From Gammaproteobacteria bacterium (GTDB taxonomy: Bacteria; Pseudomonadota; Gammaproteobacteria; Steroidobacterales; Steroidobacteraceae), in the NCBI GenBank assembly GCA_018970145.1, contig JAGWWY010000002.1, forward strand, positions 186,001 to 250,000: a DNA stretch of 64,000 nt, in the 5' to 3' direction. Under the pieces are notes generated by a model that had not been told where the DNA came from, made no database searches, and was given only the letters and a program-made list of their open reading frames with translations. Positions 8,771 to 62,398 of the stretch are shown here, piece after piece (within the stretch, counting starts at the first letter, position 1; the number at the start of each line of letters is the position of its first letter). The position numbers and the translations under genes are program-made.

Positions 8771-8804
8771 GTCAGTTTTTGGTCGGATAGGCACGGGGGA
8801 CACC

Positions 8805-45303: not shown

Positions 45304-45340
45304 GGGACGCCGCCGAGTTTGCAGCAGGTCTGGAAATATC

Positions 45341-45377
45341 GTCGCCGCATCCCCAATCGGGTGCGGCGACTTTTTTT
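45341..45377 (+). terminator. Intrinsic terminator between exbD and the repeat-protein pair
   Basis: GTCGCCGCATCCC pairs with GGGTGCGGCGAC around a short loop and is followed by seven T residues (45371-45377). The next gene starts only 13 bases after the T-run, so read-through or regulated termination probably sets its level. Confidence 0.85.
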
Positions 45378-45389
45378 ATGAGGAAAGTC

Positions 45390-46598: not shown

Positions 46599-46622
46599 GG
46601 CGTCCGACGAGAGGTGAATTCC

Positions 46623-47852: not shown

Positions 47853-48221
47853 TCAGCTCTCGACCGCGGCGACCGGGTCATCCTCGGCGCCGCGGTGCGT
47901 GCTTCGCATCACTTCATCGAGCTCGGCGTGCACCGATCGCATCATGCGATCGACGAACGCCTTGCGGCGCGTGTCGCGCTGCAGCGCCGATTTCGGATCC
48001 GGTCGCCATAAATCGACCTCGTTCGCTTTCAGCACTCGCTTTTTGGCCAGCAGCCTCTCGACGGTATCGAGGCGATCCCGCGTCACGGAAAGCTCCTCCA
48101 TCAAGGTCACCGTCATCCAGAGCAGTTTGTCGATAGCCGGGTCGCTGAAGTACTGAGGTTTCTTGCCCTTGGCTACACGCGCGATACGCGGCGCGGTTTT
48201 TTGGGGTTTGCGGGTTGTCAT
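47853..48221 (-). CDS. Small hypothetical protein A, paralogue of 49427-49750
   Basis: 122 residues, no signal peptide or membrane segment. A basic N-terminus is followed by PQYFSDPAIDKLLWMTVTLMEELSVTRDRLDTVERLL, then a charged helical tail (RRKAFVDRMMRSVHAELDEV). The central block is about half identical to small protein B two genes upstream. No known domain was recognised. It is the last gene of a six-gene minus-strand operon and overlaps the methyltransferase gene by 4 bases. The duplicated pair flanks that methyltransferase, suggesting they are its partner subunits. Confidence 0.75.
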   Translation of the reverse strand: MTTRKPQKTAPRIARVAKGKKPQYFSDPAIDKLLWMTVTLMEELSVTRDRLDTVERLLAKKRVLKANEVDLWRPDPKSALQRDTRRKAFVDRMMRSVHAELDEVMRSTHRGAEDDPVAAVES

Positions 48222-49387
48222 CCACCGACTCCGTGCTTAGCCGCGACCAAGATATTCCAGACGAAGCGCTCGGTGTAGTTCATCTGCGTGACGTCCATCG
48301 TTGGCACGAACTCCTCCAGCGCAACTTCCTCGGCGGTAAAGCCGGCACCACGAGCTTCCGCGGTTAGGTCGATACGGGTCATGTATCGGCTGAACGTCTC
48401 GTTGTTGTTGTACGACTCCCAGTTGTGCATGAACTGCTCGATTGGCGTGCGACCACGCGGAATCTCCAGGTGCAGCATCAAGCCGCCTGGTTTCAGTAAT
48501 CGTCGGCACTCGGCGAGGATGCGAAGGAGCGCGGATTTGGAGGTTTCATGCAGCATGATATGCGAGGTCACAAGGTCAAAGCTGTGGTCGCAAAAGTCGG
48601 TGCGCTCGGCGTTCTGTTGACTGAAGTGAATGCGAGCACCGAGCGACTCCGCGCGTGCATGCGCATAGCGTAGGACGGGTGCGCCGACATCAATGCCGTG
48701 CACCTCTGCTTTCGGAAACGCTTTAGCCCAAACGACGGTGCTGTTACCAATCGCGCAACCGAGATCGAGAATTCGCTTTGGCTGGCGCGACGGATGCCGC
48801 TCGCGCAGGTAGGCGAGCAGCGTATTCCCCATCAAATCATTCTCGGCACCGAGTGCACCACCCATGTAAAGGTTGATGCCCTTGTCGTAAATGGCACCGG
48901 CCGCAACGTCATCGGCGGTGAAGTCGGTGTGGTAGCCACCCGGTTGCAGATGGATGTCCGCGGCGGCATGGTAGCGCGGCACCGTCAGGGCCGCGTCGAG
49001 ACGTAGCGAACCTCGCTTGCGCGCGTTGGTCCTCGCGCTCGCTTTTGCGCCTGCCTTAGAACGTGCGCGGTGGATCAACTTGGACCATTCACGTTCGGTG
49101 GGATCGATGACTGACTCCCACAGCAGCTCTTGGCTACGACGCTGCAGCGCGCTCCAAAACTGATAATAGGGCTCGCGCGTCATCCACTCGCGGATCTCCT
49201 GCTCATCGGCGGGGGCTCGACCGTGTTCGGCAGCGAAGAGCGGGGCAACCCGTCGCTCGAAGAGCTGGTAATTACCGGGCATCACTCGCCCGGAGAGGTG
49301 TCCACGCAAGGCACCAACAAAATCTTGTCGAGCTTGCTCGTCGTGCTGCGGCGTCGGTAGCAGCGCGTGCTGCTTGAAATCCTTCAT
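48218..49387 (-). CDS. Class I SAM-dependent methyltransferase with a long N-terminal domain
   Basis: 389 residues. Residues about 200-310 are a Rossmann methyltransferase: ILDLGCAIGNSTVVWAK (motif I), VHGIDVG, then FDLVTSHIMLHE and LLKPGGLMLHLEIPRG (motifs IV-V). An N-terminal helical region of about 190 residues (MKDFKQHALLPTPQH ... YQFWSALQRRSQELLWESV) and a conserved-looking linker (GGYHTDFTADDVAAGAIYDKGINLYMGG) are unusual. The acceptor is unknown; O-methylation in the neighbouring catabolic pathway or modification of a protein partner are both possible. Flanked on both sides by paralogous small genes. Confidence 0.82.
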   Translation of the reverse strand: MKDFKQHALLPTPQHDEQARQDFVGALRGHLSGRVMPGNYQLFERRVAPLFAAEHGRAPADEQEIREWMTREPYYQFWSALQRRSQELLWESVIDPTEREWSKLIHRARSKAGAKASARTNARKRGSLRLDAALTVPRYHAAADIHLQPGGYHTDFTADDVAAGAIYDKGINLYMGGALGAENDLMGNTLLAYLRERHPSRQPKRILDLGCAIGNSTVVWAKAFPKAEVHGIDVGAPVLRYAHARAESLGARIHFSQQNAERTDFCDHSFDLVTSHIMLHETSKSALLRILAECRRLLKPGGLMLHLEIPRGRTPIEQFMHNWESYNNNETFSRYMTRIDLTAEARGAGFTAEEVALEEFVPTMDVTQMNYTERFVWNILVAAKHGVGG

Positions 49388-49426
49388 GCCGGTCGACCTC
49401 CCTGATGGCGAACAGATCGCTCGATG

Positions 49427-49750
49427 CTAGCGCCGGCGGCTGCCGCGTGTGATCCGATCGTCGCGAAATTCGCGGAACGGTCGCAGCAGGCGCTGTGCCA
49501 AGTCCGCACGACGGGCTTGCCGCTCGGCCTCGACGACCTCGTTGGGTTTGTAGGCATCGATCTCTGCGCGGCTCATACCAAGACGTTCTTGCAAAAGACG
49601 CTCGAGGGTATCGATACGATCGAAGGCAACTGCAAGTTCGGTACCGAGGATGACGTAGCCGTCATACAACTGGTCAATCGCAGGATCAGAGAAAACCTGC
49701 GGCCGATGCCCTTTAGGGAATTCGGGTGGCGGCTGGGTCGGGTCGGTCAT
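49427..49750 (-). CDS. Small hypothetical protein B, paralogue of 47853-48221
   Basis: 107 residues. PQVFSDPAIDQLYDGYVILGTELAVAFDRIDTLERLL aligns without gaps to the core of small protein A; both then have an acidic helix and an RR-rich tail (RRADLAQRLLRPFREFRDD). No known domain. ATG 49750 is 2 bases after the VOC gene stop, and a longer in-frame start would overlap that gene. It lies upstream of the methyltransferase, with a 39-base gap. Confidence 0.72.
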   Translation of the reverse strand: MTDPTQPPPEFPKGHRPQVFSDPAIDQLYDGYVILGTELAVAFDRIDTLERLLQERLGMSRAEIDAYKPNEVVEAERQARRADLAQRLLRPFREFRDDRITRGSRRR

Positions 49751-49752
49751 AG

Positions 49753-50643
49753 TCACGCCTCGATGACTTCTATCCACTCACCGGTTGGACCCACACACAC
49801 ACCGGCGCGACGCCCGTAATAGGGCGCTTGCGGCAGCGCCCGTGGGGGGGCGATCCATGGTAGGTCGGACGGCCACGCACTGACAGTAAACGACACCATC
49901 GAAATGGCGGGCGGAAGTTCACCCTCCAAGGCACGCCGGGGCAGGGTGCCAGGGGGCATTCGGTCCGCCTCGATAAAAGACTGACCCTGCAGCGTTAACG
50001 CAGCGAGATCATGTCGTGCATCATCCGGAAGCCCGTGCGCTCGCGAGATCACCGAGATCACCGACGGCACGACGGTAGCCGGCGCGATACCGAAATGACG
50101 AGCGTAGAAATCGTTGATCGCAGCACAGGACTCGCCGCCCAAGATCACGATGAAAACGCGATCGACATAGTGCTTCGGGTCCGGTGTATCGAATTCAGGC
50201 AGCTTTTCTTTGAAAGACGTGAGATAGATCGACTCCTTCGCCGGTCCGAGCGCCTGCATCGCGCGGATCTTGTCTGAAAACGACAGGTCAGCCGGCGGAC
50301 CGATGATATCGAAGGGCGAGCCGATCAGGCGCGCCGCGATGCCGTCGGTGTCTTGCACCATGAACTCGGCGGCATTCCAACCCATGTGGCGGAAGGCGAC
50401 GTACTCGTGATGCGGGCGACTTTCGACAAAGCGCAAAAACGTTTGACCATCACCGCCCGGTAACATCAGCGCATAGCGGCGCCCCGCGAGCTTTGGCAGG
50501 TTCCAAAGGTTGGCCTGTGCAGGCGACAAGCGTCCGTGATCGACCAACTGATAGCCGAGATGCAAATGATACGAATCGATCATGTGTTGCAATTCGGGCG
50601 CGGCAATCGTCACACACGTAATCGGTCCTAAAGTGCTGCTCAT
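49753..50643 (-). CDS. VOC-superfamily protein (glyoxalase/dioxygenase fold)
   Basis: 296 residues. Two VOC-like beta-alpha-beta-beta-beta modules are visible: ITCVTIAAPELQHMIDSYHLHLGYQLVD near the N-terminus and DRVFIVILGGESCAAINDFYARHFG near 170, ending GVCVGPTGEWIEVIEA. VOC enzymes include ring-cleaving dioxygenases, glyoxalases and epimerases. A His/Glu metal site is only partly apparent, so the activity is uncertain. It sits in the CoA-transferase/isochorismatase operon, its start overlapping the isochorismatase stop by 4 bases. Confidence 0.72.
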   Translation of the reverse strand: MSSTLGPITCVTIAAPELQHMIDSYHLHLGYQLVDHGRLSPAQANLWNLPKLAGRRYALMLPGGDGQTFLRFVESRPHHEYVAFRHMGWNAAEFMVQDTDGIAARLIGSPFDIIGPPADLSFSDKIRAMQALGPAKESIYLTSFKEKLPEFDTPDPKHYVDRVFIVILGGESCAAINDFYARHFGIAPATVVPSVISVISRAHGLPDDARHDLAALTLQGQSFIEADRMPPGTLPRRALEGELPPAISMVSFTVSAWPSDLPWIAPPRALPQAPYYGRRAGVCVGPTGEWIEVIEA

Positions 50644-51284
50644 CGAGGAAGACTCCGCAAGTAATCGAGCACATCGGCTAACGAGGCGACCTCGGCGTAC
50701 TTGGCCTGCAGGTCGAACAGGTTAGCCTCATGCGGACCCGGGGCGCGATCACCCACGGCTTCACGCACCACAACGGGGACGAAACCGTGCTGGCAACAAT
50801 CGACGGTACTCGCGCGAACGCAGCCGCTCGTGGAGAGTCCCGCGATTAGGACCGTGTCTACCTGCAACGCCGTCAGCGTCGAGGCGAGCGAAGTGCCGAA
50901 GAAAGCACTCGCATATTGCTTCGAGATGACGGTCTCGCCCGCTACGGGCTCGAGACCCTCCGCGAACGCCGCGAGATCCGGGTGCGCACCGGCTTCGAAG
51001 CAGGCCAGTGCCGGCACTTTGCGAAAGAACACGCCGCCATCGCGACCACCCGGCTGATACACCACGTTGGTATGAACGATCGGGATACCGGCGGCGCGTG
51101 CGCCGTTTAACAGCGTGACGCAATCGGTCCGAGCCTGCTCGACGCCGGCGTAAAGCGGCGAGTCCGGCACGAGATAAGCGCTTACGAAGTCGATCACCAA
51201 CAGAGCGGGACGACGCCCGGGTGCGAGGCGCTGTCCGAAGCCGCCGCGCGCGTAGTTGTCCTGTAACGATTCGCCGGTGTTCAT
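50640..51284 (-). CDS. Isochorismatase-fold amidohydrolase (cysteine hydrolase), copy 1
   Basis: 214 residues. The family triad is present: Asp32 (ALLVIDF), Lys122 (VISKQYASAFFGT) and Cys155 (LSTSGCVRAST). The superfamily includes N-carbamoylsarcosine amidase, maleamate amidohydrolase, ureidoacrylate amidohydrolase and nicotinamidase. Because a second copy and hydantoinase subunits lie in the same locus, a carbamoyl or half-amide substrate is likely; this is inference. Overlaps both neighbours by a few bases. Confidence 0.87.
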   Translation of the reverse strand: MNTGESLQDNYARGGFGQRLAPGRRPALLVIDFVSAYLVPDSPLYAGVEQARTDCVTLLNGARAAGIPIVHTNVVYQPGGRDGGVFFRKVPALACFEAGAHPDLAAFAEGLEPVAGETVISKQYASAFFGTSLASTLTALQVDTVLIAGLSTSGCVRASTVDCCQHGFVPVVVREAVGDRAPGPHEANLFDLQAKYAEVASLADVLDYLRSLPR

Positions 51285-52498
51285 CAGATGACCTTTGCCG
51301 CACGCAATTGTGCGAGTCGTTCCGCGGTGTAACCGAGCAACTTCGTGTACACGGCATCGTTGTGTTGACCGAGCTCCGTCGGCGCAGGGGTGCGAATGCT
51401 GCCCGGAGTCTCGGAGAACTTCGGCACCGTATTTTGCATGCGAAGCTCGCCGAAATACGGGTGCTGCGTCGTCACGATCGCATCGCGCGCTTTAAAGTGC
51501 GGATCCTCGAGCATTTCCGGAGCACGATAGATCTGACCGGCTGGCACACCGAACTGATCCATCAATTCCAGTACCTGCTTGGTGTTCATGGTTGAGGTCC
51601 ACGCCTCGATCAAGCCATCGAGCAGTTTTTGATTGGCGCCGCGGGCTTGATGGTTGACGAAGCGTGCGTCTTTCGGCCACTCATTTTGACCCATGGCCTC
51701 ACACAGACGTGCGAAGACGGTGTCCTGATTCGCTGCGATCAGCACCAGTCCATCGCAAGTTTTGTACACATTCGACGGAGCGACATTCGGCAAGATCGCA
51801 CCAGTGCGCTCGCGGATATAGCCGGTCTTGTCGTACTCGGTGATCAAAGATTCCATCATCGCGAGCACCGCCTCGTACAAGGCCGAATCGACCACCTGTC
51901 CGCGGCCGGTTTTCTCACGATAGTGCAGAGCGGCGAGCGCACCCAAGCAGGCGAACGTGGCGGCCAACTCATCGCCGATGCTAATGCCCATGCGCGAGGG
52001 TGGCGTGGACGGATCGCCGCAGACATAACGCAGACCGCCCATCGCTTCACCGACGGCGCCGAAACCGGCACGGTGCGAGTACGGTCCGTTTTGACCGTAA
52101 CCGGATACGCGGATCATGATCAAACGAGGATTGATCTTGCTCAGCTCGTCGTAGCCACAATTCCATTTCTCCATCGTGCCGGGACGAAAGTTTTCGAGCA
52201 CGAAATCCGCTTCTTTGACCAACTCCTTTAACACGCGTTGGCCTTCGTCCTGACGCATGTCTAGCGTGATGGCCTGCTTGTTGCGGGCGACGACCGGCCA
52301 CCAGAGCGACGGTTCACCGGCCTTCTGTCGTCCCCACACCCGCAGCGGATCGCCTTGACCCGGCGGCTCGATCTTGATGACTTCCGCACCCAAGTCGCCG
52401 AGTAGCTGCCCGCAGAAAGGTCCCGCTAGCAACGTGCCCAACTCCAGCACGCGAAGATCGGCAAGGGGGCCACGCTTGAAATTCGGTTCGGCGGTCAT
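51284..52498 (-). CDS. Class III (CaiB/BaiF) CoA-transferase, second copy
   Basis: 404 residues. Family core: LADLRVLELGTLLAGPFCGQLLGDLGAEVIKIEPPGQGDPLR. At the place where the usual nucleophilic Asp is found, this protein reads AGFGAVGEAMGG (Gly147, Glu151), unlike Asp140 of the copy at 7568-8770; the downstream RMGISIGDELAA segment is conserved. First gene of the minus-strand operon. Divergent from the HMG-CoA-lyase homologue, with which it probably forms a CoA-activation/cleavage pair. ATG 52498 gives the usual N-terminus; longer frames cross the divergent gene. Confidence 0.85.
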   Translation of the reverse strand: MTAEPNFKRGPLADLRVLELGTLLAGPFCGQLLGDLGAEVIKIEPPGQGDPLRVWGRQKAGEPSLWWPVVARNKQAITLDMRQDEGQRVLKELVKEADFVLENFRPGTMEKWNCGYDELSKINPRLIMIRVSGYGQNGPYSHRAGFGAVGEAMGGLRYVCGDPSTPPSRMGISIGDELAATFACLGALAALHYREKTGRGQVVDSALYEAVLAMMESLITEYDKTGYIRERTGAILPNVAPSNVYKTCDGLVLIAANQDTVFARLCEAMGQNEWPKDARFVNHQARGANQKLLDGLIEAWTSTMNTKQVLELMDQFGVPAGQIYRAPEMLEDPHFKARDAIVTTQHPYFGELRMQNTVPKFSETPGSIRTPAPTELGQHNDAVYTKLLGYTAERLAQLRAAKVI

Positions 52499-52655
52499 GA
52501 TCGGCAATACCTCGGCGGTCGAAGGGTTCGAATGAGCAGAAATGTCACGGGGTTTGTACCGAGTGACGTTTGTCCGGTCAAGGATGCCTCGACGATCACA
52601 CACGAGGCGGTTAACGGGGTTAGAATGCATTGCGGAGTGGATGTCAGGAGGCTCG

Positions 52656-53570
52656 ATGTCGCGCACGATCGAAATCGTCGAAGTTGGCCCACGCGATGGG
52701 CTGCAGAGCGAGCCCGGCGTCATGCCGACAGCCGCCAAGATCGACTTCATCGAGCGCCTGATCGACGCCGGTTTGCGTCGTCTCGAAGTCACCAGCTTCG
52801 TCAATCCCAAGAAGGTCCCGCAGATGGCCGATGCCGAGCAGGTGCTTGCCGGTCTGAACAAACGCCACGATGTCCGTTACGTCGGACTCGTCCTCAATCA
52901 CAAAGGTTTCGAGCGCGCTGTGGCCGCTGGCTGCAACGAAATCGGTATGGCCGTGGTAGCGAGCGACACCTTCAATCGCCGTAATCAGGGGGTTGGCACC
53001 GACGAGTCGATCACTGCGTGGCTTGAGATCGCTAGAGAGGCCCATGCCATCGGCGTTCGCCCACAAGTGACGGTATCGGCCGCTTTCGGTTGCCCTTTTG
53101 AAGGTGAAATATCCGTTGATCGCGTGATCGAGGTCGCCAAGCGGGTCGCCGAGGCAAACCCGTTCGAGGTCGCTTTCGCGGACACCATCGGTGTAGGCGT
53201 GCCATCGCAGGTCACCGAGATTCTCACCCGCGCTGCTGAGGCGCTGCCTGGCGTGCGCCTTCGCGCGCATTTCCACAACACGCGAAACACCGGTCTGGCG
53301 AATGCTTACGCCGCCGTCGCGGCAGGCGTGTCGGCACTCGACTCGAGTGCGGGAGGCATTGGGGGTTGTCCGTTCGCACCGGCTGCGACCGGTAACATAC
53401 CAACCGAAGACCTCGTCTACATGTTGCAACGGATGGGTGTATCGACGGGCATCGATCTCGACAAACTGCTCGCGACGGGCGAGTGGTTGCAACAAACTCT
53501 CGGGCGCGGTGTGCCTGGCATGTTGCTCAAGGCCGGACGATTTCCTCAATCGACCGCGCAAGCGGCGTGA
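52656..53570 (+). CDS. HMG-CoA lyase-family protein, second copy
   Basis: 304 residues. EVGPRDGLQ, AHFHNTRNTG (metal-binding His pair) and GGIGGCPFAPAATGN (catalytic Cys loop) identify the DRE-TIM lyase family. Probable retro-aldol cleavage of a 3-hydroxy-acyl-CoA such as HMG-CoA or citramalyl-CoA formed by the divergent CoA-transferase. ATG 52656 is preceded by a good AGGAG (CAGGAGG) at the right distance; longer upstream starts are not preferred. First gene of the plus-strand catabolic operon. Confidence 0.87.
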   Translation: MSRTIEIVEVGPRDGLQSEPGVMPTAAKIDFIERLIDAGLRRLEVTSFVNPKKVPQMADAEQVLAGLNKRHDVRYVGLVLNHKGFERAVAAGCNEIGMAVVASDTFNRRNQGVGTDESITAWLEIAREAHAIGVRPQVTVSAAFGCPFEGEISVDRVIEVAKRVAEANPFEVAFADTIGVGVPSQVTEILTRAAEALPGVRLRAHFHNTRNTGLANAYAAVAAGVSALDSSAGGIGGCPFAPAATGNIPTEDLVYMLQRMGVSTGIDLDKLLATGEWLQQTLGRGVPGMLLKAGRFPQSTAQAA

Positions 53571-53677
53571 CCGTTCAACGGTTGATGTCGCGCATCGAAC
53601 GGATTGCAGAGCATGGGGTGAGGCCGGATACTTCGGTCTCTTTGTTTCACCACGGATAGCGAGCCCAAGGGGGGCGC

Positions 53678-55768
53678 ATGTCATATCGATTGGGTGTAGA
53701 TGTCGGCGGCACGTTCACGGACCTGCTGCTAGTTCATGAAAAGTCGGGCCAAGTGTGGACCGCGAAGGTGCCCTCGACACCGGCCGATCAGTCGATCGGC
53801 GTGTTGAATGGGATCCAGAAGGTCTGCGAGCGCGCGGGCATTGATCCTAAGCAGATCGATCACGTGATGCACGGTACGACCGTCGCGACCAACACCGTGC
53901 TGACTGGCACCGGTGCGAAGGTAGGCTTGGTCACCACCAAGGGCTATCGTCAGGTTTTGCAGATCGCTCGCTCTTACGTTCCGGGCGGTCTCGGTGGCTG
54001 GATCATCTACAACAAGTCGCTGCCGATGGCGCCGCTCGCCTGCACCATCGAAGCGGACGAGCGAGTCAGCGCTAAGGGCGAGATCGTGCGCAAGCTTGAC
54101 GAGAAAGCGCTGCGCATCAGCCTGCGCTCACTCAAAAAGCAAAACATCGAAGCACTGACGATTTCTTTGATCAACTCGTTCGCGAACACATCGCACGAAC
54201 AACGCGTCCGCGAGATCGCGATGGAAGAGCTGCCGGGCATGCCGGTGTCGATCTCCTCGGATGTTGTCCCCGAGATGCAAGAGTACGAGCGCACGGTCAC
54301 CACCGTCGCCAACTCCTATGTTCGTCCGCGCGTCGACCGCTACGTCAAGAATCTCAAAGCGAAGCTCGGTCAAGTGGCTGACAAGGTCAAACTGCACATC
54401 CTGCGTTCGGACGGCGGCCTCGCCTCCGCGCAGTCGGCAGCGGATTACCCGGTCAATTTGTTGATGTCCGGTCCCGCCGGTGGCGTGACGGGTGCGTTGT
54501 GGGTCGCCAAGCAGGCGGGTTTCCCGAACCTGCTGACCGTTGACGTCGGTGGGACATCGACCGACGTCGCGCTGATCCAGGGCGGTCAACCGCGCCTGCG
54601 TCGCGAGACGACGGTCGGCGACGTCACGGTTCGCGCCTCGTCGGTGGACATCCGCACGGTCGGTGCGGGCGGTGGTTCGATCGCCCACGTGCCGGAACTC
54701 ACCAAGGCACTGCGCGTCGGCCCCCAATCGGCCGGCGCCGATCCGGGTCCGGCGGCCTACAACCGTGGCGGTACGGAGCCAACCGTGGCCGATGCCAACA
54801 TCGTGCTCGGTTATTTGCCCGAGATGCAAAAGCTCGGCGGTGACATGGAGCTGCGTCGCGATCTTTCGCAGATCGCCGTCAAGAAGGTCGGTGACGCCTT
54901 GGGCCTCAAGGTGAAGGATGCGGCTCAAGGTATTTACAACATCGTCAACGAGAACATGGTGGGTGCACTGCGTCTCGTGTCGGTGGAGCAGGGCTACGAT
55001 CCGCGCGACTACGCACTGATCGCCTTTGGCGGCGCCGGTCCGATCCACGCCAACGCCTTGTCGCGGCTGCTCGGTTCATGGCCGTCGATCATTCCGCCCG
55101 GCCCCGGTGTGCTCTGCGCACTCGGTGACGCCACCACGGCAGTTCGTGACGAACGCGCGCGAACCTACGTGCGTCAGTTCTCTGAGACCTCGGCCAAAGA
55201 AATCGAGAAGATTCTCAAGGAGCTTGCGACCGATGCCTCGAAGGGTATCGAGGCTGAGGGTGTCAAAAAGTCGGAAATGACCACGAGCTATCAGGTCGAT
55301 CTGCGATATCACGGCCAAGGTCTGCGCCTAACGGTCGAAGTCGACCTGAAGGATCTGCAGAAGAAGGGTCTGAAGTCGATCAGCGACAAGTTCGACGCTG
55401 AGCATAAGCGCCTCTTCACTTTCGCGCTGCCGCTCGAGCACGAGCTCGTCACGCTGCGCTCGGCGGTGCAGGGCCAAGGCATCAAGATCAAGCGTCAACT
55501 GCTCAAGAGCGGCGGTTCGAATCCGAAGGCCGCGATCGTCGGCAAGCAGAAGTCCTATATGGACGGCAAGGATGTCACGGCTACCGTTTATGCTCGCGGC
55601 AAACTGCAAGCCGGTAACAAGATCGCAGGGCCTGCGATCGTGATGGAAATGGACTCGACGTCGGTGATCCTGCCGAAGCACACCGGCCACGTCGATAAGT
55701 CTGGCTGCATCCTGATCTACCCCGACAACCACAAGGCGCCCAAGAAGGCAGCCTCGAAGAGGAAGTAA
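53678..55768 (+). CDS. Hydantoinase/oxoprolinase family protein, subunit A (HyuA-like)
   Basis: 696 residues. ASKHA-type ATPase fold: N-terminal LGVDVGGTFTDLLLV, then MHGTTVATNTVLTGTGAKVGLVTTKGY, SDGGLASAQSAADYPVNLLMSGPAGGV and VDVGGTSTDVALI. The family includes N-methylhydantoinase A, 5-oxoprolinase, caprolactamase and acetophenone carboxylase alpha-type subunits. It activates a cyclic amide or a ketone carbonyl at the expense of ATP, together with the B subunit. AAGGGGGG before the ATG is a strong ribosome site. Codon use looks optimised compared with neighbours, suggesting strong expression. Confidence 0.9.
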   Translation: MSYRLGVDVGGTFTDLLLVHEKSGQVWTAKVPSTPADQSIGVLNGIQKVCERAGIDPKQIDHVMHGTTVATNTVLTGTGAKVGLVTTKGYRQVLQIARSYVPGGLGGWIIYNKSLPMAPLACTIEADERVSAKGEIVRKLDEKALRISLRSLKKQNIEALTISLINSFANTSHEQRVREIAMEELPGMPVSISSDVVPEMQEYERTVTTVANSYVRPRVDRYVKNLKAKLGQVADKVKLHILRSDGGLASAQSAADYPVNLLMSGPAGGVTGALWVAKQAGFPNLLTVDVGGTSTDVALIQGGQPRLRRETTVGDVTVRASSVDIRTVGAGGGSIAHVPELTKALRVGPQSAGADPGPAAYNRGGTEPTVADANIVLGYLPEMQKLGGDMELRRDLSQIAVKKVGDALGLKVKDAAQGIYNIVNENMVGALRLVSVEQGYDPRDYALIAFGGAGPIHANALSRLLGSWPSIIPPGPGVLCALGDATTAVRDERARTYVRQFSETSAKEIEKILKELATDASKGIEAEGVKKSEMTTSYQVDLRYHGQGLRLTVEVDLKDLQKKGLKSISDKFDAEHKRLFTFALPLEHELVTLRSAVQGQGIKIKRQLLKSGGSNPKAAIVGKQKSYMDGKDVTATVYARGKLQAGNKIAGPAIVMEMDSTSVILPKHTGHVDKSGCILIYPDNHKAPKKAASKRK

Positions 55769-55771
55769 TCC

Positions 55772-57703
55772 ATGCCTGCAACTATCGTTCAGCGCAACAA
55801 GAAGCCGTTCAAGAAGGTCAAGGTCGACACCGTCACCATCGACATCATCGAGAGCGCACTGCGCAATGCGCGTTACGAGATGGACACGGTGCTGTTCCGC
55901 ACGGCGATGTCTCCGGGCATTCGCGAGCAGCATGACGAGTTCCCGATGATCGCCAACACCGACGGCAAAATGGTCGTTGGTCAGTTTGGTTCGTTCATCT
56001 GGGGCTTTATGAAGGGCTACGATGGCACGATCGAAGAGGGCGATATCTTCTTGACCTCTGACCCGTACTCGGTCAACGGCGCGATCAGCCACGCCAACGA
56101 CTGGCTGATGTTGATGCCCGTTTACCGCGGTGGTCGCATCATCGCTTGGGCGGCGATGTTCGGTCATATGACGGACGTGGGTGGCAAGGTCCCCGGTTCC
56201 TTGCCGACCGACGGCACCACCATCTACGAAGACGGCATCGTCGTTCCGCCGACGAAGATCTTCAGGGCGGGCAAGCTCAATGAGGACGTGCTGCGCGTCG
56301 TGCTGCACAATTGCCGCCTGCCGGAATGGAACCTCTCGGACTTCAACGCGATCACGGCCGCGCTGCGTACCGCAGCGGCCCGCTGCGTCGAGATTTCCGA
56401 GCGCTTTGGCGACGACGTGTTCTATTCGGCCATGGATGCCATGCTCGATCGCAACAAGCGTGCGATGCGAGCTCTGATTCGTCAGAACGTGCCGGAAGCG
56501 AAGCAATTCTTTGAGGACTATATCTGCGACGACGGTCTCAACATGGGACCGTATCGCATCAAGTGCAGCATGTGGCGCGAAGGTGACAAGTGCATCTTCG
56601 ACTTCACGGGCACCGACCCGCAGTCGATTTCCTCGATCAACTTCTTGTTGAACGAGGAAATGTTCAAGATGTTTGCTGGCATCTACATGATCATGGTCTT
56701 CGACCCGCAGATCCTGTTCAACGACGGGTTCTACGACCTGATGGAAGTACGCATTCCGCCCGGCTCGCTGCTAAAGCCCTTGAAGCCCGCTGCGCTCTCG
56801 TGCCGCACGCACGCTCTCGGCCGTATCTTTGACATCTTGGCCGGGCTTCTCGGCCAAGGTAATCCCGACTTTATGTGCGGTGCCGGCTTTTCCGACAGCC
56901 CGCACTTCATGTACTCGGGCTACGACAAGAATGGCGAGTGGTACCAGCTCTACCAGATCACCTTCGGTGGTATACCGGGTAAGCCCTTTGGCGACGGTCC
57001 GGACGGTCACTCGCTGTGGCCGTCGTTCACCAACGTGCCGAACGAGTTCCTCGAGAGCTATTTCCCGCTGCGCATCGACATTTACGAAACCATCGCGGAC
57101 ACCGGCGGCGCAGGTAAGAACCGTGGTGGCAACGGTCTGCGTATCGGCTACCGCTTCCTCGAGCCAGGCGAGATCTCGATCCACGACGATCGTTGGCTTA
57201 CCTATCCTTGGGGAGCCAATGGTGGTGAGCCCGGTGCCCGTAGTCGCAAACTCCTGCAGCGTGCCAACGGCACCGAGGAGTTGCTCCCGTCCAAGATCGA
57301 CCACGTCAAAGTCGAAGCGGGCGACCTGCTGATCGCCGACACCTGGGGTGGCGGCGGTTGGGGTGATCCGCTGGAACGCGACGCCAAGCAGGTGGCGTTC
57401 GATGTCGTTGCCGGTCTTGTGACCGTCGAGGGCGCCAAGCGCTATGGCGTGATCGTCGATGCGGACGGCAATGTCGACGAGACGGCGACCGCGAGCCTGC
57501 GCAAGCAGATGGCAAGCAAGCGTGGGAAAAAGAAGATCTTTGATCGCGGATTTGAGTCGATCGAAGAGCTCAAGTCGCGCTGCAAGGCCGAGACGGGTTT
57601 CGATCCGCCGGCAACGCCGCGCTTCACCAAGTGGGCTGCCGTAGCTGCCGAGGCGATGAAACGCGCTGAAGCGGCGGCGAAGAAGGGCTCGAAGGCTGCC
57701 TGA
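55772..57703 (+). CDS. Hydantoinase/oxoprolinase family protein, subunit B (HyuB-like)
   Basis: 643 residues. HyuB motifs include MSPGIREQHDEFPMIANTDGKMVVGQFGSF, DPYSVNGAISHANDWLMLMPVY, GHMTDVGGKVPGSLPTD and GGAGKNRGGNGLRIGYRF. It contributes the hydrolytic half of the complex with HyuA. It starts 3 bases after HyuA. An intrinsic terminator follows, so HyuAB may be expressed more strongly than the genes downstream. Confidence 0.9.
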   Translation: MPATIVQRNKKPFKKVKVDTVTIDIIESALRNARYEMDTVLFRTAMSPGIREQHDEFPMIANTDGKMVVGQFGSFIWGFMKGYDGTIEEGDIFLTSDPYSVNGAISHANDWLMLMPVYRGGRIIAWAAMFGHMTDVGGKVPGSLPTDGTTIYEDGIVVPPTKIFRAGKLNEDVLRVVLHNCRLPEWNLSDFNAITAALRTAAARCVEISERFGDDVFYSAMDAMLDRNKRAMRALIRQNVPEAKQFFEDYICDDGLNMGPYRIKCSMWREGDKCIFDFTGTDPQSISSINFLLNEEMFKMFAGIYMIMVFDPQILFNDGFYDLMEVRIPPGSLLKPLKPAALSCRTHALGRIFDILAGLLGQGNPDFMCGAGFSDSPHFMYSGYDKNGEWYQLYQITFGGIPGKPFGDGPDGHSLWPSFTNVPNEFLESYFPLRIDIYETIADTGGAGKNRGGNGLRIGYRFLEPGEISIHDDRWLTYPWGANGGEPGARSRKLLQRANGTEELLPSKIDHVKVEAGDLLIADTWGGGGWGDPLERDAKQVAFDVVAGLVTVEGAKRYGVIVDADGNVDETATASLRKQMASKRGKKKIFDRGFESIEELKSRCKAETGFDPPATPRFTKWAAVAAEAMKRAEAAAKKGSKAA

Positions 57704-57733
57704 GGTCTTGAGCCTGACCAGGCCTTGAACGAA

Positions 57734-57773
57734 AGTCCTCGCATCAGAGTATGGTGCGGGGACTTTTTCTTTT
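57734..57773 (+). terminator. Intrinsic terminator after the HyuB-like gene
   Basis: AGTCCTCGCA pairs with TGCGGGGACT and is followed by TTTTTCTTTT. It splits the plus-strand operon; the next gene starts 35 bases later. Confidence 0.85.
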
Positions 57774-57808
57774 GTAACGACACTTGAGAACGTCGAGCGG
57801 GGGAGAGC

Positions 57809-58438
57809 ATGACGGACAAGTACCTCGGAGTGGGTTACGCCAGCAGCCAGATCGGGTTCGGGCGCCGGGCGGCGGTACTGGTGGTCGATTGGCAAGTCGC
57901 CTTCACTGACCCACGCTACGAGCTTGGCGGTCTCGATCGACTGCATCAGGCTCGCGATAACACCGCCGATTTTTTGAAGGTCGCAAGAGAACACGGTTTG
58001 CCGGTGGCCGCGTGTTACACCGCTTACTGCAGCAGCAAGGATATGCCGCTGTGGAAAGTCGCCGCCGTTCGCAAAGAGTTTTTCTACGGCCACGAGTGCA
58101 CGCTCATGGATCCCAAAATCCATGATCCGTCGGACTTCACCTATTGCAAGAATGCTCCGTCGATGTTCTTCCAGACGCCGCTCATCACCTTTTTAGTCAA
58201 AGAAAACATCGATACGGTATTGATCACCGGTTGTACGACGAGTGGTTGCGTGCGCGCCACGATCGTCGATGCCTTCTCCTATGGTTTTCGGGTGCAAGTG
58301 CTCGCCGATTGTTGCGGTGATGCCGAAGAGGGGCCGCACAACGACGCCCTGCGCGATGTCGGTCGGCGCTATGCCGACGTCACCGACCGAGCTTCGGTGG
58401 AGGCGTGGATACGCGCCACCGTTAACCGCGGGCACTGA
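57809..58438 (+). CDS. Isochorismatase-fold amidohydrolase (cysteine hydrolase), copy 2
   Basis: 209 residues. Triad: Asp27 (AVLVVDW), Lys114 (TYCKNAPSMFFQTPL) and Cys147 (CTTSGCVRATI). It resembles N-carbamoylsarcosine amidase-type members in general layout, but is clearly diverged from copy 1 at 50640-51284. With HyuAB upstream, hydrolysis of a carbamoyl or amide product of ring opening is plausible. GGGGAG precedes the ATG. It is 4 bases from the molybdenum enzyme gene. Confidence 0.87.
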   Translation: MTDKYLGVGYASSQIGFGRRAAVLVVDWQVAFTDPRYELGGLDRLHQARDNTADFLKVAREHGLPVAACYTAYCSSKDMPLWKVAAVRKEFFYGHECTLMDPKIHDPSDFTYCKNAPSMFFQTPLITFLVKENIDTVLITGCTTSGCVRATIVDAFSYGFRVQVLADCCGDAEEGPHNDALRDVGRRYADVTDRASVEAWIRATVNRGH

Positions 58439-58442
58439 CGCC

Positions 58443-60626
58443 GTGACTCTCGAAAGTCGGCAACGTCGTCGGCTCCTGCAAGCGGCTGTTGCGGTCAGCG
58501 GCGGTCTCCTCCTGCGTAGTTCGCCAGCAACCGCGCAAGTCAGTGCGCTACCAGATGGTGCGTCCGCCCGCTTCAGTGTTTATCTCGAGATCACACCGGC
58601 GGGACGCATCCGCATCACGAGTCCGCAATCGGAAATGGGCCAGGGTATTCACGATGCGCTCGCCAAGATTCTCGCCGAGGAGCTCGAAGCGAGCTGGGAG
58701 GATGTTGAGATCCTCTCGCCGACAGCCGACGATGCCTTGATCAATCCGATTACTCGTCGTCATCGCACCGCCGCAAGTGAGTCGGTCGTGATCTACCGCG
58801 ATGTCATGCGTCGGATGGGCGCGAGCGCGCGCATGATGCTACAGCAGGCCGCCGCGGATCGATGGCAAGTCGACCCCAGCGAGTGCCGCGCCGAAGCGTC
58901 GGCAGTCCATCATGTCGCGTCGCAACGGCGGCTCGATTACGGTGTCCTCGCGCCGCTGGCGGCCACATTACCGATCCCGGATAACCCTCTTCTCAAGCCG
59001 CGCGAAGCCTATCGCTTGGTCGGCCACTCGACCCCGCGCAAGAATACGCCAGCCAAAGTCACAGGACGCGCCGTCTACGGTATCGACGTCCAGTTACCCG
59101 GCATGCTTTACGCCGCCTTGCGTCGCTCGCCGCTGGTGGCCTCGCGAGTCAAACACTTTGATCGCGCTGCCGCTCTCGCACAACGAGGTGTCGTCGACGC
59201 CTTCGAGATCGACGAAGGTGTGGCCATCGTCGCCAACTCGACCTGGACCGCTTGGCAAGCGGCCAAAGAAATCTCGGTCGAGTTCGACGAGGCGCCCGCC
59301 GAAGCCTTCGATAGTGAAGCCCTGCGCAAAGCCATGCGGGCAGCCCTCGATGCCGACAACGAAGCACGACCCGGACGTGCACTGAGTGGCCCGCCCTACG
59401 ATAGAGCGGCGACCTGGGCGGCGCTGTCCGACGCGCCGCGACGAGCCGAGTGGGTTTACGAAGTGCCGTTCCTCGCGCACGCCGCACTCGAGCCGCTGTG
59501 CGCCACGGCGGTGGTACATGCCGATCGCGCCGAGGTCTGGGCACCCACGCAGCAACCGGATCGGTGTCGCGATGCCATCGTCGCGATCACCGGCTTGCCG
59601 CGTGAGCGCTGCATTTTGCATGTCACGTTGTTAGGTGGCGGCTTCGGCCGAAAATGGGAAACGGACTTCGTGAGACAAACCATCACCATCGCGCGTGAGG
59701 TGGCCCGCCAACGACCCGGAACACCTGTCAAACTCACGTGGACGCGAGAGCAGGACTTTCTGCACGATCGATTCCGGCCAGCGCACACGGCGCGCTCGCG
59801 AGCGGGCTTGAGCGAGGATGGTCGTCTGCTCGCATTGCACAGCCGAATCACCGGCCCGAGTATTTTCTCGTTTCAGAAGCGTAATCTGCCGCCGGGCGTC
59901 GCCGACCCCTTCGCCAGCGGACTATTGATTAACGATTTTTATCGGATGCCGGTTCGACTCGCCGACTATGTAGAGACCAAAGCGCCGGTTCCGATCGGGA
60001 CGTGGCGCTCCGTCGCGCAGTCGCAAAATGGTTTCTTCTCCGAAAGCACCATCGACGATATCGCGACAACCACCCGTCGCGACCCGCTTGCCTTGCGACG
60101 CGAGCTGTGTGCGCACGACCCAAGAGCACTCGCCGTGCTCGAGCGCGCTGCGCTATTAGCACAGTGGGATCGGCCACTACCGAAAGGACGCGGTCGGGGA
60201 ATTTCGTTGAGCATCGCTTACGGCTCGTACTGTGCCGAAGTCGTCGAGGTTCGAGTCACGGGGCAGCGGGTGCGAATCGAGAGAATTACGGCCGTATTTG
60301 ATTGTGGCTTGATGATCGACCCGGGCACGGTCGATGCGCAGATCTCGGGCGGTATCGTCTTTGGACTCTCCGCCGCCCTCGATGGCGAGATCCGTTTCAT
60401 GCACGGCGCGGCAACCGCCCAAAACTTTGACGCGGCGCCAGTGCTGCGTATGCAGCAGGTTCCCGTCATCAAAGTGGAGCTCCTGCGCACCGATCATCCC
60501 CCCGGTGGTGCAGGCGAGGCCAGTGTTCCCGGAGTCGCGCCGGCGCTTGCAGGTGCCATCCACGCGGCTACCGGTCAGCGGCCCCGTCGCTTGCCGCTCG
60601 TTGCCGAAGGCTGGAGTTTCTCGTGA
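58443..60626 (+). CDS. Tat-exported molybdopterin-binding hydroxylase large subunit (isoquinoline oxidoreductase beta-like)
   Basis: 727 residues, GTG start. A twin-arginine signal is present (SRQRRRLLQAAVAVSGGLLL), so it acts in the periplasm. Mo-cofactor motifs: SEMGQGIHDALAKILAEELEA, LLGGGFGRKWETDF, PIGTWRSVAQSQNGFFSES and PPGGAGEASVPGVAPALAGAI, with a Glu typical of the xanthine oxidase active site. The IPTGTWRSV-type segment is close to isoquinoline 1-oxidoreductase and aldehyde dehydrogenase large subunits. These need a [2Fe-2S] subunit; none is encoded nearby. Probable hydroxylation of an N-heterocycle or aldehyde. Confidence 0.85.
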   Translation: MTLESRQRRRLLQAAVAVSGGLLLRSSPATAQVSALPDGASARFSVYLEITPAGRIRITSPQSEMGQGIHDALAKILAEELEASWEDVEILSPTADDALINPITRRHRTAASESVVIYRDVMRRMGASARMMLQQAAADRWQVDPSECRAEASAVHHVASQRRLDYGVLAPLAATLPIPDNPLLKPREAYRLVGHSTPRKNTPAKVTGRAVYGIDVQLPGMLYAALRRSPLVASRVKHFDRAAALAQRGVVDAFEIDEGVAIVANSTWTAWQAAKEISVEFDEAPAEAFDSEALRKAMRAALDADNEARPGRALSGPPYDRAATWAALSDAPRRAEWVYEVPFLAHAALEPLCATAVVHADRAEVWAPTQQPDRCRDAIVAITGLPRERCILHVTLLGGGFGRKWETDFVRQTITIAREVARQRPGTPVKLTWTREQDFLHDRFRPAHTARSRAGLSEDGRLLALHSRITGPSIFSFQKRNLPPGVADPFASGLLINDFYRMPVRLADYVETKAPVPIGTWRSVAQSQNGFFSESTIDDIATTTRRDPLALRRELCAHDPRALAVLERAALLAQWDRPLPKGRGRGISLSIAYGSYCAEVVEVRVTGQRVRIERITAVFDCGLMIDPGTVDAQISGGIVFGLSAALDGEIRFMHGAATAQNFDAAPVLRMQQVPVIKVELLRTDHPPGGAGEASVPGVAPALAGAIHAATGQRPRRLPLVAEGWSFS

Positions 60627-62059
60627 GTTTGCAGCGGGTCGGTTTCTGGTTAGGTGCAAGTCTCTTTTCTTTGATGCTTGCGTGGCCAGCACCGGACGGC
60701 TTATCGCTCGAAGGCTGGCGCGTAGCCGCGCTCACGGTGCTGATCGGCTGCTGGTGGTTCACCGAGGCGGTACCTGTGACGCTCACAGGCAGTCTACCGT
60801 TTCTGTTGCTTCCGCTACTGGGAGTCTCTAAGGCCGAGACGGTCGCCGGGCAATACATGTCACCGGTGCTTTTCCTGATTCTCGGCGGCACGCTCATCGG
60901 TGCTGCCTTCGAAAAATGGAATCTGCACCGACGAGTTGCCTTGTTTGTGGTGTCGCACGCAAACCCGGAGCCACGCTCTTTGCTGTTCGCCGTGATGTCG
61001 GTGACCGCTGTCGTGTCGATGTGGGTCAACAATTCGGCGACCACCGTCATGATGTTACCGATAGCGCTCGCAGCCATCAGCGCCATCGTTCCCAATCTTG
61101 ATGCACCGGAGACGGACGGCCATCGACGTAATTTCGCCGCTGCCATGATCCTCGGCATTTCGTTGGCTTCGAACATCGGCGGGTTCGCCACACCGATCGG
61201 TACGCCCGTAAACTCGATCGCGGTCGGCATTCTCGAGCGTAGTTTCGATACCTCCATTTCTTTTGCGCAGTGGATGAGCTTCGGCGTTCCGTTCATGTTG
61301 GTGATGCTGCCGATCACTTGGTGGGCTCTCTGCCGGGTTACCTTGCCGTTCCAATTCGATGGTGGCTCGCGTGAGTCCATTCGGACAGCGATCGGCGTCA
61401 TGGGGCCGATGGGAACGCCAGAGAAGAGGGTGGTGATCATCGTAAGCGTGGTGGCGCTCGCGTGGGTATTTCAGCCGTTCGTCGAACGACACGTGCCGGG
61501 TATGACCGATGCCGGTATCGCGATCGCGGCGGCTTTGTTGCTGGCGCTGCTGCCTTCGGGCTCGGCTGGCACGGATCAGCCCAAAACGCTGCTCGAGTGG
61601 GAGGACGCGAAACGGGCCCCGTGGTATCTCATCCTGCTGTTGGGTGGCGGACTTGCGCTCGCCGATGCCGTCGTGAAATCGGGTCTGTCGGCGTGGCTCT
61701 CACAGGCTCTTAGCGCCGTGAGCGATTTGCCGTTGCTACCGATGCTGCTCGCGATCGCGTTACTCTGTGCATTGATCACCGAGGCGGCGAGCAACGTTGC
61801 CACTGCCACGATATTCATGCCGATCGCGGCGAGTCTCGCGCTCGGTGCGGGTTATGACCCCGTGCTCGCGGCATTGGCCGCCGCCATGGCGGCGAATCTC
61901 GGCTTTGCGAATCCCGCGGCGACGTCATCCAATGCGCTCGTCTACTCGACCGGTCGTATCCCGATCACGGCGATGCTGAAAGCGGGTTTACTGGTCGATC
62001 TTGTCGGGGCGATCACCATTGCCGCCGTGTGCCTGTGGATCGTCCCCGCCGTGCTGTAA
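60623..62059 (+). CDS. SLC13/DASS-family carboxylate transporter
   Basis: 478 residues, about 11 transmembrane helices. GTG start overlaps the preceding stop. DASS signatures include CWWFTEAVPVTLTGSLPFLLLP, VNNSATTVMMLPIALA, SNIGGFATPIGTPVNSI, ITEAASNVATATIFMPI and ANLGFANPAATSSNALVYS. The SNT-type sodium/carboxylate sites appear in both halves. It probably imports a dicarboxylate or related anion with Na+, possibly the substrate or product of the pathway. Confidence 0.92.
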   Translation: MSLQRVGFWLGASLFSLMLAWPAPDGLSLEGWRVAALTVLIGCWWFTEAVPVTLTGSLPFLLLPLLGVSKAETVAGQYMSPVLFLILGGTLIGAAFEKWNLHRRVALFVVSHANPEPRSLLFAVMSVTAVVSMWVNNSATTVMMLPIALAAISAIVPNLDAPETDGHRRNFAAAMILGISLASNIGGFATPIGTPVNSIAVGILERSFDTSISFAQWMSFGVPFMLVMLPITWWALCRVTLPFQFDGGSRESIRTAIGVMGPMGTPEKRVVIIVSVVALAWVFQPFVERHVPGMTDAGIAIAAALLLALLPSGSAGTDQPKTLLEWEDAKRAPWYLILLLGGGLALADAVVKSGLSAWLSQALSAVSDLPLLPMLLAIALLCALITEAASNVATATIFMPIAASLALGAGYDPVLAALAAAMAANLGFANPAATSSNALVYSTGRIPITAMLKAGLLVDLVGAITIAAVCLWIVPAVL

Positions 62060-62062
62060 GCG

Positions 62063-62398
62063 ATGAGTTTCTACCCGTTGCTCGTCGCGCTGTTGGCTTG
62101 GAGTGCGGCAACGGCTGCTGCGCTCACACCCGGTCGAGTCAACCGGCCAGCAGCAATGTTTGTCGCGATGCATGTCATTGCCGTCGGTGCGGTGACCGCG
62201 CTCGTGGCCACGCAGACCATCCACTGGGGTGCACTGGTCTTGCCGCTCGCAACCTTGCGTAGTGTCTTTAGCGTGGCCAACGATTGGTCGAACAATGGCG
62301 ATGAGGCGGCGACTCGTATCCGTGGAACTGCGATCAAAGTTCCGTTAGTCGGCCTCGGGTGGGTCTTGGGCTGGGCGATCGTGGGTGCGACGGCCTAG
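62063..62398 (+). CDS. Small integral membrane protein
   Basis: 111 residues with three hydrophobic segments (LLVALLAWSAATAAAL; AMFVAMHVIAVGAVTALVA; VPLVGLGWVLGWAIVGATA). No known domain. It follows the transporter by 3 bases and could be an accessory subunit; that is inference. Confidence 0.7.
   Translation: MSFYPLLVALLAWSAATAAALTPGRVNRPAAMFVAMHVIAVGAVTALVATQTIHWGALVLPLATLRSVFSVANDWSNNGDEAATRIRGTAIKVPLVGLGWVLGWAIVGATA

Follow-up and report, generated by a model that had tools for sequence, protein, structure and literature searches.

A conserved HyuAB, CoA-transferase and lyase gene set in a freshwater gammaproteobacterium, a candidate module for degrading a small cyclic imide

The DNA analysed here, hereafter the window, is a stretch of 64,000 nucleotides of contig JAGWWY010000002.1 from the draft genome of a freshwater bacterium (2.43 Mb, 23 contigs, 94.65% complete). 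Its positions 47853–62398 (~14.5 kb) contain a putative catabolic locus of two divergent operons arranged around 52.5 kb, in both of which adjacent same-strand genes overlap or are separated by at most ~107 bases. At the centre lie a class III CoA-transferase gene (CoAT, 404 aa, 51284–52498, minus strand; PF02515, E 3.5e-128) and, on the plus strand, the gene of a hydroxymethylglutaryl-CoA (HMG-CoA) lyase homologue, a predicted retro-Claisen lyase (HMGL, ~52656–53570; NF004283). The HMGL gene is followed by those of HyuA, the ATP-binding subunit of the hydantoinase/oxoprolinase family (696 aa, 53678–55768; PF05378, PF01968 and PF19278 above cut-off), and HyuB, the metal-dependent subunit predicted to open the ring (643 aa, 55772–57703; PF02538, E 1e-139). 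Each operon also encodes an isochorismatase-fold hydrolase (PF00857) that is probably an amidase, hydrolase 1 on the minus strand (214 aa, 50640–51284) and hydrolase 2 on the plus strand (209 aa, 57809–58438). The gene families and the divergent two-operon layout proposed in an initial annotation of the window were borne out by the open reading frames, their translations and family scans.

Membership of HyuA and HyuB in their family is indicated both by the Pfam HyuA and HyuB domains and by the metal ligands known from the caprolactamase subunit CapB, since Asp55, His107, Asp110 and His132 of HyuB align (phmmer) with Asp41, His99, Asp102 and His124 of CapB. In the mechanism proposed for caprolactamase, ATP activates the cyclic amide in one subunit and the metal site of the other hydrolyses it (PMC8453981). 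The caprolactamase equivalogs of NCBIfam matched HyuAB with 550.9 and 188.5 bits, under the cut-off of 1000 bits per subunit. The best solved relative of HyuA is the N-methylhydantoinase 7hk5 (E 6e-135), and the closest solved relative of HyuB is also N-methylhydantoinase. HyuAB might instead act as an ATP-dependent carboxylase of the acetone or acetophenone carboxylase type, with the CoA branch degrading the product; the common fold family and weak matches to the acetophenone carboxylase models (327.4, 191.6 and 130.1 bits) speak for such a role, but the best of these scores, 327 bits, faces a cut-off of 1500 bits (cut-offs 1250–1500), a third-subunit gene was not seen beside HyuAB in the window, and the best solved matches are hydrolases. 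With scores so far under the cut-offs the carboxylase assignment was dropped, and it is regarded as extremely improbable.

The two isochorismatase-fold proteins are 33% identical to each other and carry Asp32, Lys122 and Cys155 (hydrolase 1) and Asp27, Lys114 and Cys147 (hydrolase 2), the established Asp-Lys-Cys triad of isochorismatase-fold cysteine hydrolases. The closest solved relative of hydrolase 1 is N-carbamoylsarcosine amidohydrolase (26st), followed by the putative isochorismatase 3ot4/3uao (NicF). Enzymes of N-methylhydantoin and creatinine degradation are thus the best solved relatives of HyuAB and of this amidase, at the level of family similarity. Against the RutB and biuret hydrolase models, both hydrolases scored 30–42 bits (cut-offs 378 and 370). 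The CoAT fell under the cut-offs of all seven NCBIfam CoA-transferase models that it matched, with 270.9 and 254.5 bits for succinate-glutarate and mesaconate CoA-transferases (cut-offs 750 and 700). The HMGL passes the subfamily model NF004283 (PRK05692 family; 326.7 bits, cut-off 246), and its stretches GPRDGLQ, HFH and GGCPF align with human HMGCL (2cw6). A second HMGL, 43% identical to that of the locus, occurs in the same genome.

The neighbourhoods of 80 named relatives of HyuA (66–99% identity) were compared, the nearest being metagenome bins titled, for example, Nevskiaceae, Steroidobacteraceae or Gammaproteobacteria bacterium. Two record titles say Klebsiella pneumoniae (L028 and L077), yet the records match this freshwater genus, with a HyuA identity of 99% in L077, and the titles look wrong. 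Many of the neighbourhoods are cut by contig ends, so that counts out of 80 are lower bounds; the 45 that reach 5 kb or more upstream of HyuA and 6 kb or more downstream of it are referred to as full-flank loci. In most loci, CoAT and HMGL diverge from each other and HyuA-HyuB follows HMGL. HyuB was found in all 45 full-flank loci, CoAT and HMGL in 39 each, hydrolase 1 in 31 and hydrolase 2 in 25. A compact version (L042) consists of an EamA-like transporter, isochorismatase, CoAT, HMGL, HyuA, HyuB, a GntR-type regulator and a TonB receptor.

The same association was seen across 200 genomes of the family. A close HyuA and a close CoAT occurred together in 64 genomes, HyuA alone in five, CoAT alone in 13 and neither in 118 (uncorrected for relatedness), a co-occurrence that exceeds chance; HyuA and hydrolase 1 occurred together in 63 genomes and alone in six and eight, respectively. 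The underlying lists were compiled by hand, with lowest identities of ~73% for HyuA, 65% for CoAT and 62% for hydrolase 1, and the comparison assumes the same 200 genomes in each draw. A contig end falls at HyuA or at a CoAT stub in three or more of the five genomes that have HyuA alone (G057, G066 and G081). As controls served 18 regions around HyuA paralogues, which stand for 19 of 38 places at 34–40% identity and were picked for contig room. None of the 18 had a match for HMGL, isochorismatase, LeuC/LeuD, isocitrate-lyase-family or LeuA-family proteins; a weak CoAT match was found in one and a weak GntR match in three. In a HyuA tree of 76 rows, one clade of 57 with an approximate likelihood ratio support (SH-aLRT) of 100 united the window, 27 of the 80 named loci, and the 14 far and 15 plasmid loci described below, leaving outside all 18 controls and a Martelella locus (L147); the tree was built by a quick method and has long branches among the controls.

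As judged from gene content, the conserved unit is HyuA-HyuB, the class III CoAT and the HMGL homologue, usually with an isochorismatase-fold hydrolase. Besides Gamma- and Alphaproteobacteria, a plasmid of Geobacillus carries this unit, and variants of it are found on Rubrobacter and haloarchaeal plasmids. The co-conservation expected by the initial annotation for these families holds among the named relatives as well as in genomes well outside the family, and it does not extend to the 14.5 kb as a whole: the idea that the entire locus serves one pathway was dropped, its 3' part being conserved at genus level.

Distant relatives add a further enzyme. Among 398 genomes drawn across the phylum, 14 had a HyuA match with an E value of 1e-180 or lower; one of them is the genome of the window, and the 13 others provided 14 far loci. 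CoAT and HMGL lie within ~10 kb of HyuA in 12 of these, an isochorismatase is present in 12 (all except L157 and L161), and LeuC and LeuD stand near HyuAB in seven (L157, L159–L164), which come from six genomes of four families. All genes run on a single strand in L163, in the order CoAT-HMGL-HyuA-HyuB-isochorismatase-LeuC-LeuD. In L159, L160 and L162–L164 the CoAT is 30–34% and the HMGL 37–43% identical to the window's; at this distance, other orthologues may have taken over the position in these loci. If LeuC were within reach with a probability of 0.01, its presence in seven of 14 loci would have a chance of roughly 3e-11, relatedness being ignored. Wherever LeuC adjoins HyuA (six genomes), at least one further LeuC is encoded in the genome, and six of the seven other far genomes have one only. 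The HyuA-adjacent LeuC is therefore probably not the copy for leucine biosynthesis.

Plasmids carry related sets, in part with other lyases. From 25 plasmid records listed, 16 were analysed, three of which have no annotated genes in the region and were interpreted from a synteny search alone. Acidiphilium JZ-6 has LeuC, LeuD, an FAD oxidoreductase, a porin, an MFS transporter, GntR, HMGL, CoAT, HyuA, HyuB and isochorismatase; Novosphingobium capsulatum has a TonB receptor, GntR, HMGL, HyuA, HyuB, CoAT and a protein annotated as N-carbamoylsarcosine amidohydrolase; and Geobacillus pGYMC5201 has isochorismatase, HyuA, HyuB, CoAT, HMGL and a transposase, then LeuC and LeuD. The Rubrobacter plasmid carries GntR, CoAT, HyuA, HyuB and isochorismatase without an annotated HMGL. 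On four haloarchaeal plasmids, HyuA, HyuB and isochorismatase are followed by an isocitrate lyase/PEP mutase family protein, and on two others they are accompanied by CoAT and a LeuA-family protein, annotated in one as citramalate synthase. The solved relatives of the haloarchaeal isocitrate-lyase-family protein (one was searched) include 2,3-dimethylmalate lyase, in second place, and methylisocitrate lyase; the same protein reached 226.6 bits against the NCBIfam model of methylisocitrate lyase PrpB (cut-off 354.4). The set is not uniform, as HyuAB of Sphingomonas pJE1 and Sphingobium TomTYG65 are accompanied by a succinate-semialdehyde dehydrogenase and have no CoAT, HMGL or isochorismatase matches, and the Martelella HyuAB region also lacks these three. 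On pJE1 (L140, 2469–17479), HyuAB occurs with PrpD, a HapK-like protein, a methyltransferase and small protein, FAD enzymes and the dehydrogenase, a gene content indicating a different downstream route on the same HyuAB clade.

The window itself encodes LeuC/LeuD-type proteins in a second cluster (4555–9968, plus strand), a candidate hydratase/lyase module that, according to family scans, comprises LeuC-like (4555–5979) and LeuD-like (5980–6633) proteins, an HMGL paralogue (6630–7571) and a CoAT paralogue (~7571–8770), followed by an acyl-CoA dehydrogenase. A further LeuC (35146–36537, minus strand) appears to be a better candidate for leucine biosynthesis than the copy at 4555–5979. The LeuC-LeuD-HMGL-CoAT quartet is found in unchanged order on two Novosphingobium plasmids (L153 and L154), where the genes are 57–70% identical to the window cluster and end 3.0 and 5.4 kb before HyuA; an isocitrate-lyase-family gene follows HyuAB there, and an isochorismatase was not found in the 20 kb. 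By analogy with Novosphingobium only, the two clusters of the window are candidates for parts of one route. The second CoAT is present in 42 of the 200 family genomes, and the locus occurs in 34 of these 42 compared with 48 of the 158 without it, which is weak evidence because many near relatives are included.

Taken together, the core is proposed to degrade a small maleate/malate-type cyclic imide, with a probability of about 0.5; the enzyme families, residues and linkage are read from the sequence, and the reactions, their order and the substrate are inferred from them. HyuA with ATP would activate a ring carbonyl, and the metal site of HyuB would hydrolyse the ring to a half-amide of the maleamate type. 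An isochorismatase-fold cysteine amidase would then free ammonia to give the diacid, and the second amidase may take the other regioisomer. A LeuC/LeuD-type hydratase would add water to form a substituted malate, a step perhaps needed only for an unsaturated ring; the class III CoAT would form a malyl-CoA-type thioester, from which the HMGL homologue would release a 2-oxo acid together with acetyl-CoA or propionyl-CoA. The order suggested in the initial annotation, ring opening, amide hydrolysis, CoA activation and cleavage, remains plausible within this scheme, while the LeuC/LeuD hydratase and the replacement of the lyase were missing from it.

The choice of substrate class depends on the later enzymes. 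An isochorismatase-fold amidase after HyuAB fits either an imide, opened to a half-amide, or a hydantoin, opened to an N-carbamoyl compound, so that the next enzymes decide. LeuC/LeuD-type hydratases, HMGL acting on a CoA ester, LeuA working in reverse, and methylisocitrate and dimethylmalate lyases can, partly by inference, share a substituted malate, that is a 2-hydroxy diacid. An unsaturated or hydroxylated five-membered imide would yield such a malate without deamination, and a hydantoin would not. LeuC/LeuD beside HyuAB and the lyase replacement in haloarchaea therefore suggest that the intermediate is of the malate type and the substrate an imide of the maleate/malate type, and not a hydantoin or isoquinoline-type heterocycle, which the initial annotation listed among the compounds to test.

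Several observations weigh against this interpretation. The opening of imides is usually independent of ATP, and the ATP requirement is the weak point of an imide substrate; the closest solved HyuAB is N-methylhydantoinase. At the thresholds used, neither isochorismatase was detected in seven of the 45 full-flank loci, and within the stretch searched none was found in L157, L161, L153 and L154. LeuC/LeuD are near HyuAB in seven of the 80 named loci, and the copies in L075, L076 and L078–L080 stand beside genes resembling aminotransferases or LeuA and perhaps serve biosynthesis; half of the 14 far loci have no LeuC/LeuD nearby, and those of the window are ~40 kb from the HyuAB locus. The HyuA clade also includes loci without the downstream set (pJE1 and TomTYG65; L140 and L143). 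HMGL is absent from six full-flank loci, all titled Halieaceae or Luminiphilus, which have a CoAT of only ~30% identity, a protein like hydrolase 2, an alpha/beta hydrolase and another protein of the isochorismatase fold, RutB-like in the single case scanned.

The Halieaceae variant of the locus is represented by L086, L087, L091–L093 and L096. CitE-like, PrpD-like and HpaB-family genes are near several Halieaceae loci, and in L091, the neighbours scanned include a TauD-type oxygenase, CitE-like, PrpD-like and HpaB-family proteins and a RutB-like hydrolase. A RutA-like gene is near four of these loci (L091, L093 and L096, and L092, where it is cut); the L091 protein scored 363 bits, under the RutA cut-off of 498. 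Such monooxygenases (one scanned), together with an allantoinase-like hydrolase in L056 that is also under its cut-off, would suit degradation of a hydantoin or another cyclic ureide, in which HyuAB forms an N-carbamoyl compound, the isochorismatase-fold enzyme removes the carbamoyl group and the CoA branch takes the skeleton after a deamination encoded elsewhere; the N-methylhydantoinases and the N-carbamoylsarcosine amidohydrolase that are the closest solved relatives of HyuA, HyuB and hydrolase 1 favour it as well. However, decarbamoylation leaves an amine, the conserved core has no aminotransferase or amine oxidase, and LeuC/LeuD and malate-type lyases are unexpected in such a route, which makes a ureide substrate rather unlikely. 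Another option is a six-membered imide, glutaconimide (a 2,6-dihydroxypyridine), which, once opened and hydrated, would lead to 3-hydroxy-3-methylglutarate or a homologue; after activation by the CoAT, a true HMG-CoA lyase would split this compound into acetyl-CoA and acetoacetate. Such a route would agree with the lyase scoring above its HMGL subfamily cut-off, with the motifs shared with human HMGCL and with the solved succinate-hydroxymethylglutarate CoA-transferase among the closer relatives of the CoAT. Yet it is established that the isocitrate-lyase and LeuA families, which supply the replacements, act on 2-hydroxy acids and not on 3-hydroxyglutarates, and malate-type compounds are also substrates of LeuC/LeuD; glutaconimide is accordingly held to be very unlikely.

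The other genes of the locus are less widely conserved. A gene for a molybdopterin hydroxylase large subunit with a twin-arginine translocation (Tat)-like RRRLLQ start (58443–60626; PF02738 and PF20256) begins four bases after hydrolase 2 and overlaps that of a DASS-family transporter (60623–62059; TIGR00785, 238.2 bits, cut-off 198.6), and a 111-aa protein judged by eye to be membrane-like (62063–62398) completes the plus-strand operon. The hydroxylase occurs in eight, the transporter in ten and the 111-aa protein in two of the 80 named loci (six, eight and two of the 45 full-flank loci), and by this distribution all three are genus-level neighbours. The initial annotation had placed periplasmic hydroxylation by the molybdenum enzyme and import by the DASS transporter before the reactions of the core. 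The tight linkage of the two genes in the window and their recurrence in part of the genus would suit such a route, but their rarity elsewhere, the presence of TonB receptors and EamA-like or MFS transporters in place of DASS in some relatives, and the failure to find a [2Fe-2S] subunit gene for the hydroxylase in the locus all argue against it. Since both genes are genus-level neighbours, neither periplasmic hydroxylation nor uptake through DASS is supported as a conserved step, and the full route is considered very doubtful. The genome's single Fer2_2 match is on contig C7 beside a second hydroxylase, 37% identical to that of the locus (L120:4462-7127), and the two hydroxylases may share this [2Fe-2S] subunit. 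A TonB-receptor-like gene cluster (one member scanned) is present in 22 of the 80 loci.

The minus-strand operon ends in four accessory genes. The VOC-fold protein (296 aa, 49753–50643) had no Pfam or NCBIfam match at E 0.001, but its AlphaFold2 model (mean pLDDT, the predicted local distance difference test, 95.4) was matched by Foldseek to the glyoxalase fold (glyoxalase I, E 8e-13), in agreement with the initial assignment. It is followed by small helical protein 2 (49427–49750), an S-adenosylmethionine-dependent methyltransferase (389 aa, 48218–49387; PF13649/Methyltransf_25, E 4e-22) and small helical protein 1 (122 aa, 47853–48221). The two small proteins were likewise confirmed as paralogues (34% identity, alignment A2). 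Protein 1 has no Pfam match, and its helical model (pLDDT 75.8) had no match at E 0.001 in a fold search of the PDB; a piece from L037 that contained a stop was left out of the small-protein set. The conservation of VOC and methyltransferase is intermediate (29 and 18 of the 80 loci; 25 and 16 of the 45 full-flank loci). In several lineages, methyltransferases related to that of the window are encoded near HyuAB (L091, L093, L096, L140, L152 and L161), and a small helical protein relative often, not always, accompanies them. Just upstream of the locus lie a TonB-type protein (42961–43581) and two proteins that look TPR-like by eye (45102–47852); relatives of the TPR-like genes flank many loci, with confirmed cases of a TonB-type protein (L074) and a TPR protein (L095).

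Parts of the proposed route are known from other pathways. The N-methylhydantoin (creatinine) pathway shares the two-enzyme logic of an ATP-dependent N-methylhydantoinase and N-carbamoylsarcosine amidohydrolase, but ends in sarcosine without CoAT, HMGL or LeuC/LeuD. Nicotinate fermentation combines a LeuC/LeuD-type dimethylmaleate hydratase with 2,3-dimethylmalate lyase of the isocitrate-lyase family, resembling L153 and L154; it is anaerobic and is not known to involve HyuAB or isochorismatase. The bacterial nicotinate pathway has the maleamate amidase NicF, HxnM of the Aspergillus pathway works independently of ATP, and the lyase of itaconate degradation is of the CitE type. The anaerobic indoleacetate pathway shares lactam opening by the HyuA family, a CoA-dependent route and a molybdenum hydroxylase, but its lactam is aromatic, and isochorismatase, HMGL and LeuC/LeuD are not known to be part of it. 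Its IaaCE is a HyuA homologue (PMC8453981). Caprolactamase CapAB of Pseudomonas jessenii is likewise a HyuA/HyuB heteromer with the same metal ligands (PMC8453981), but its product is an amino acid, so that no amide remains to be hydrolysed, unlike in the present scheme. In the nicotinate pathways, imide opening to a half-amide is also followed by deamidation to a diacid, as in Aspergillus by HxnM and HxnN; these resemble a polysaccharide deacetylase-type protein, not HyuAB, and fatty acid amide hydrolase, respectively, and CoA-dependent cleavage is not described in the parts of the source at hand (PMC9304392). Itaconate degradation by CoA-transferase, itaconyl-CoA hydratase and citramalyl-CoA lyase likewise transfers CoA and splits a branched malyl-CoA into acetyl-CoA and pyruvate, but hydrates at the CoA-ester level with another hydratase and, in the account at hand, has no nitrogen-releasing steps (PMC12290011).

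The enzyme families are known, and their combination and spread were not found described in the open-access literature searched, in keeping with the initial statement that the set matches no recognised pathway. A HyuAB route of this kind was not found there, nor any paper joining hydantoinase and hydroxymethylglutaryl-CoA lyase, and the work listed on imides, maleimides and amidases dealt with chemistry, including that of tetrapyrroles, with cyclic amidohydrolases, and with creatinine and nicotinate; most subscription papers were outside this scope, so that this is not proof.

Maleimides derived from chlorophyll or heme are plausible candidate substrates. The oxidation products as drawn in PMC7318184 are methylmaleimide, methylethylmaleimide, methylvinylmaleimide and hematinic acid; the same source refers to finds of maleimides and hematinic acid in senescent leaves and in lake sediments, reports hematinic acid and undetected maleimides in its own leaf samples, and places chlorophyll turnover on a scale of 10^12 kg/year. 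On such compounds, ATP-dependent imide opening, deamidation and LeuC/LeuD-type hydration would give an alkylmalate or a methyl-homocitrate-like acid, whose cleavage would release acetyl- or propionyl-CoA and a 2-oxo acid (2-oxoglutarate from hematinic acid). That the module is a bacterial and archaeal route mineralising methylmaleimide, methylethylmaleimide and hematinic acid, spread by plasmids and with lineage-specific recruitment of lyases, is speculative and judged unlikely. HyuAB genes are common and mostly annotated as hydantoinase/oxoprolinase by default. One HyuAB clade is linked here to a downstream gene set that recurs in two classes of Proteobacteria and on a plasmid of Geobacillus, with swapped lyases in haloarchaea; from this link a specific chemistry can be predicted, and a short list of candidate substrates follows. 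If a tetrapyrrole-derived maleimide were the substrate, the module would be a sink for the small pyrrolic products of chlorophyll turnover.

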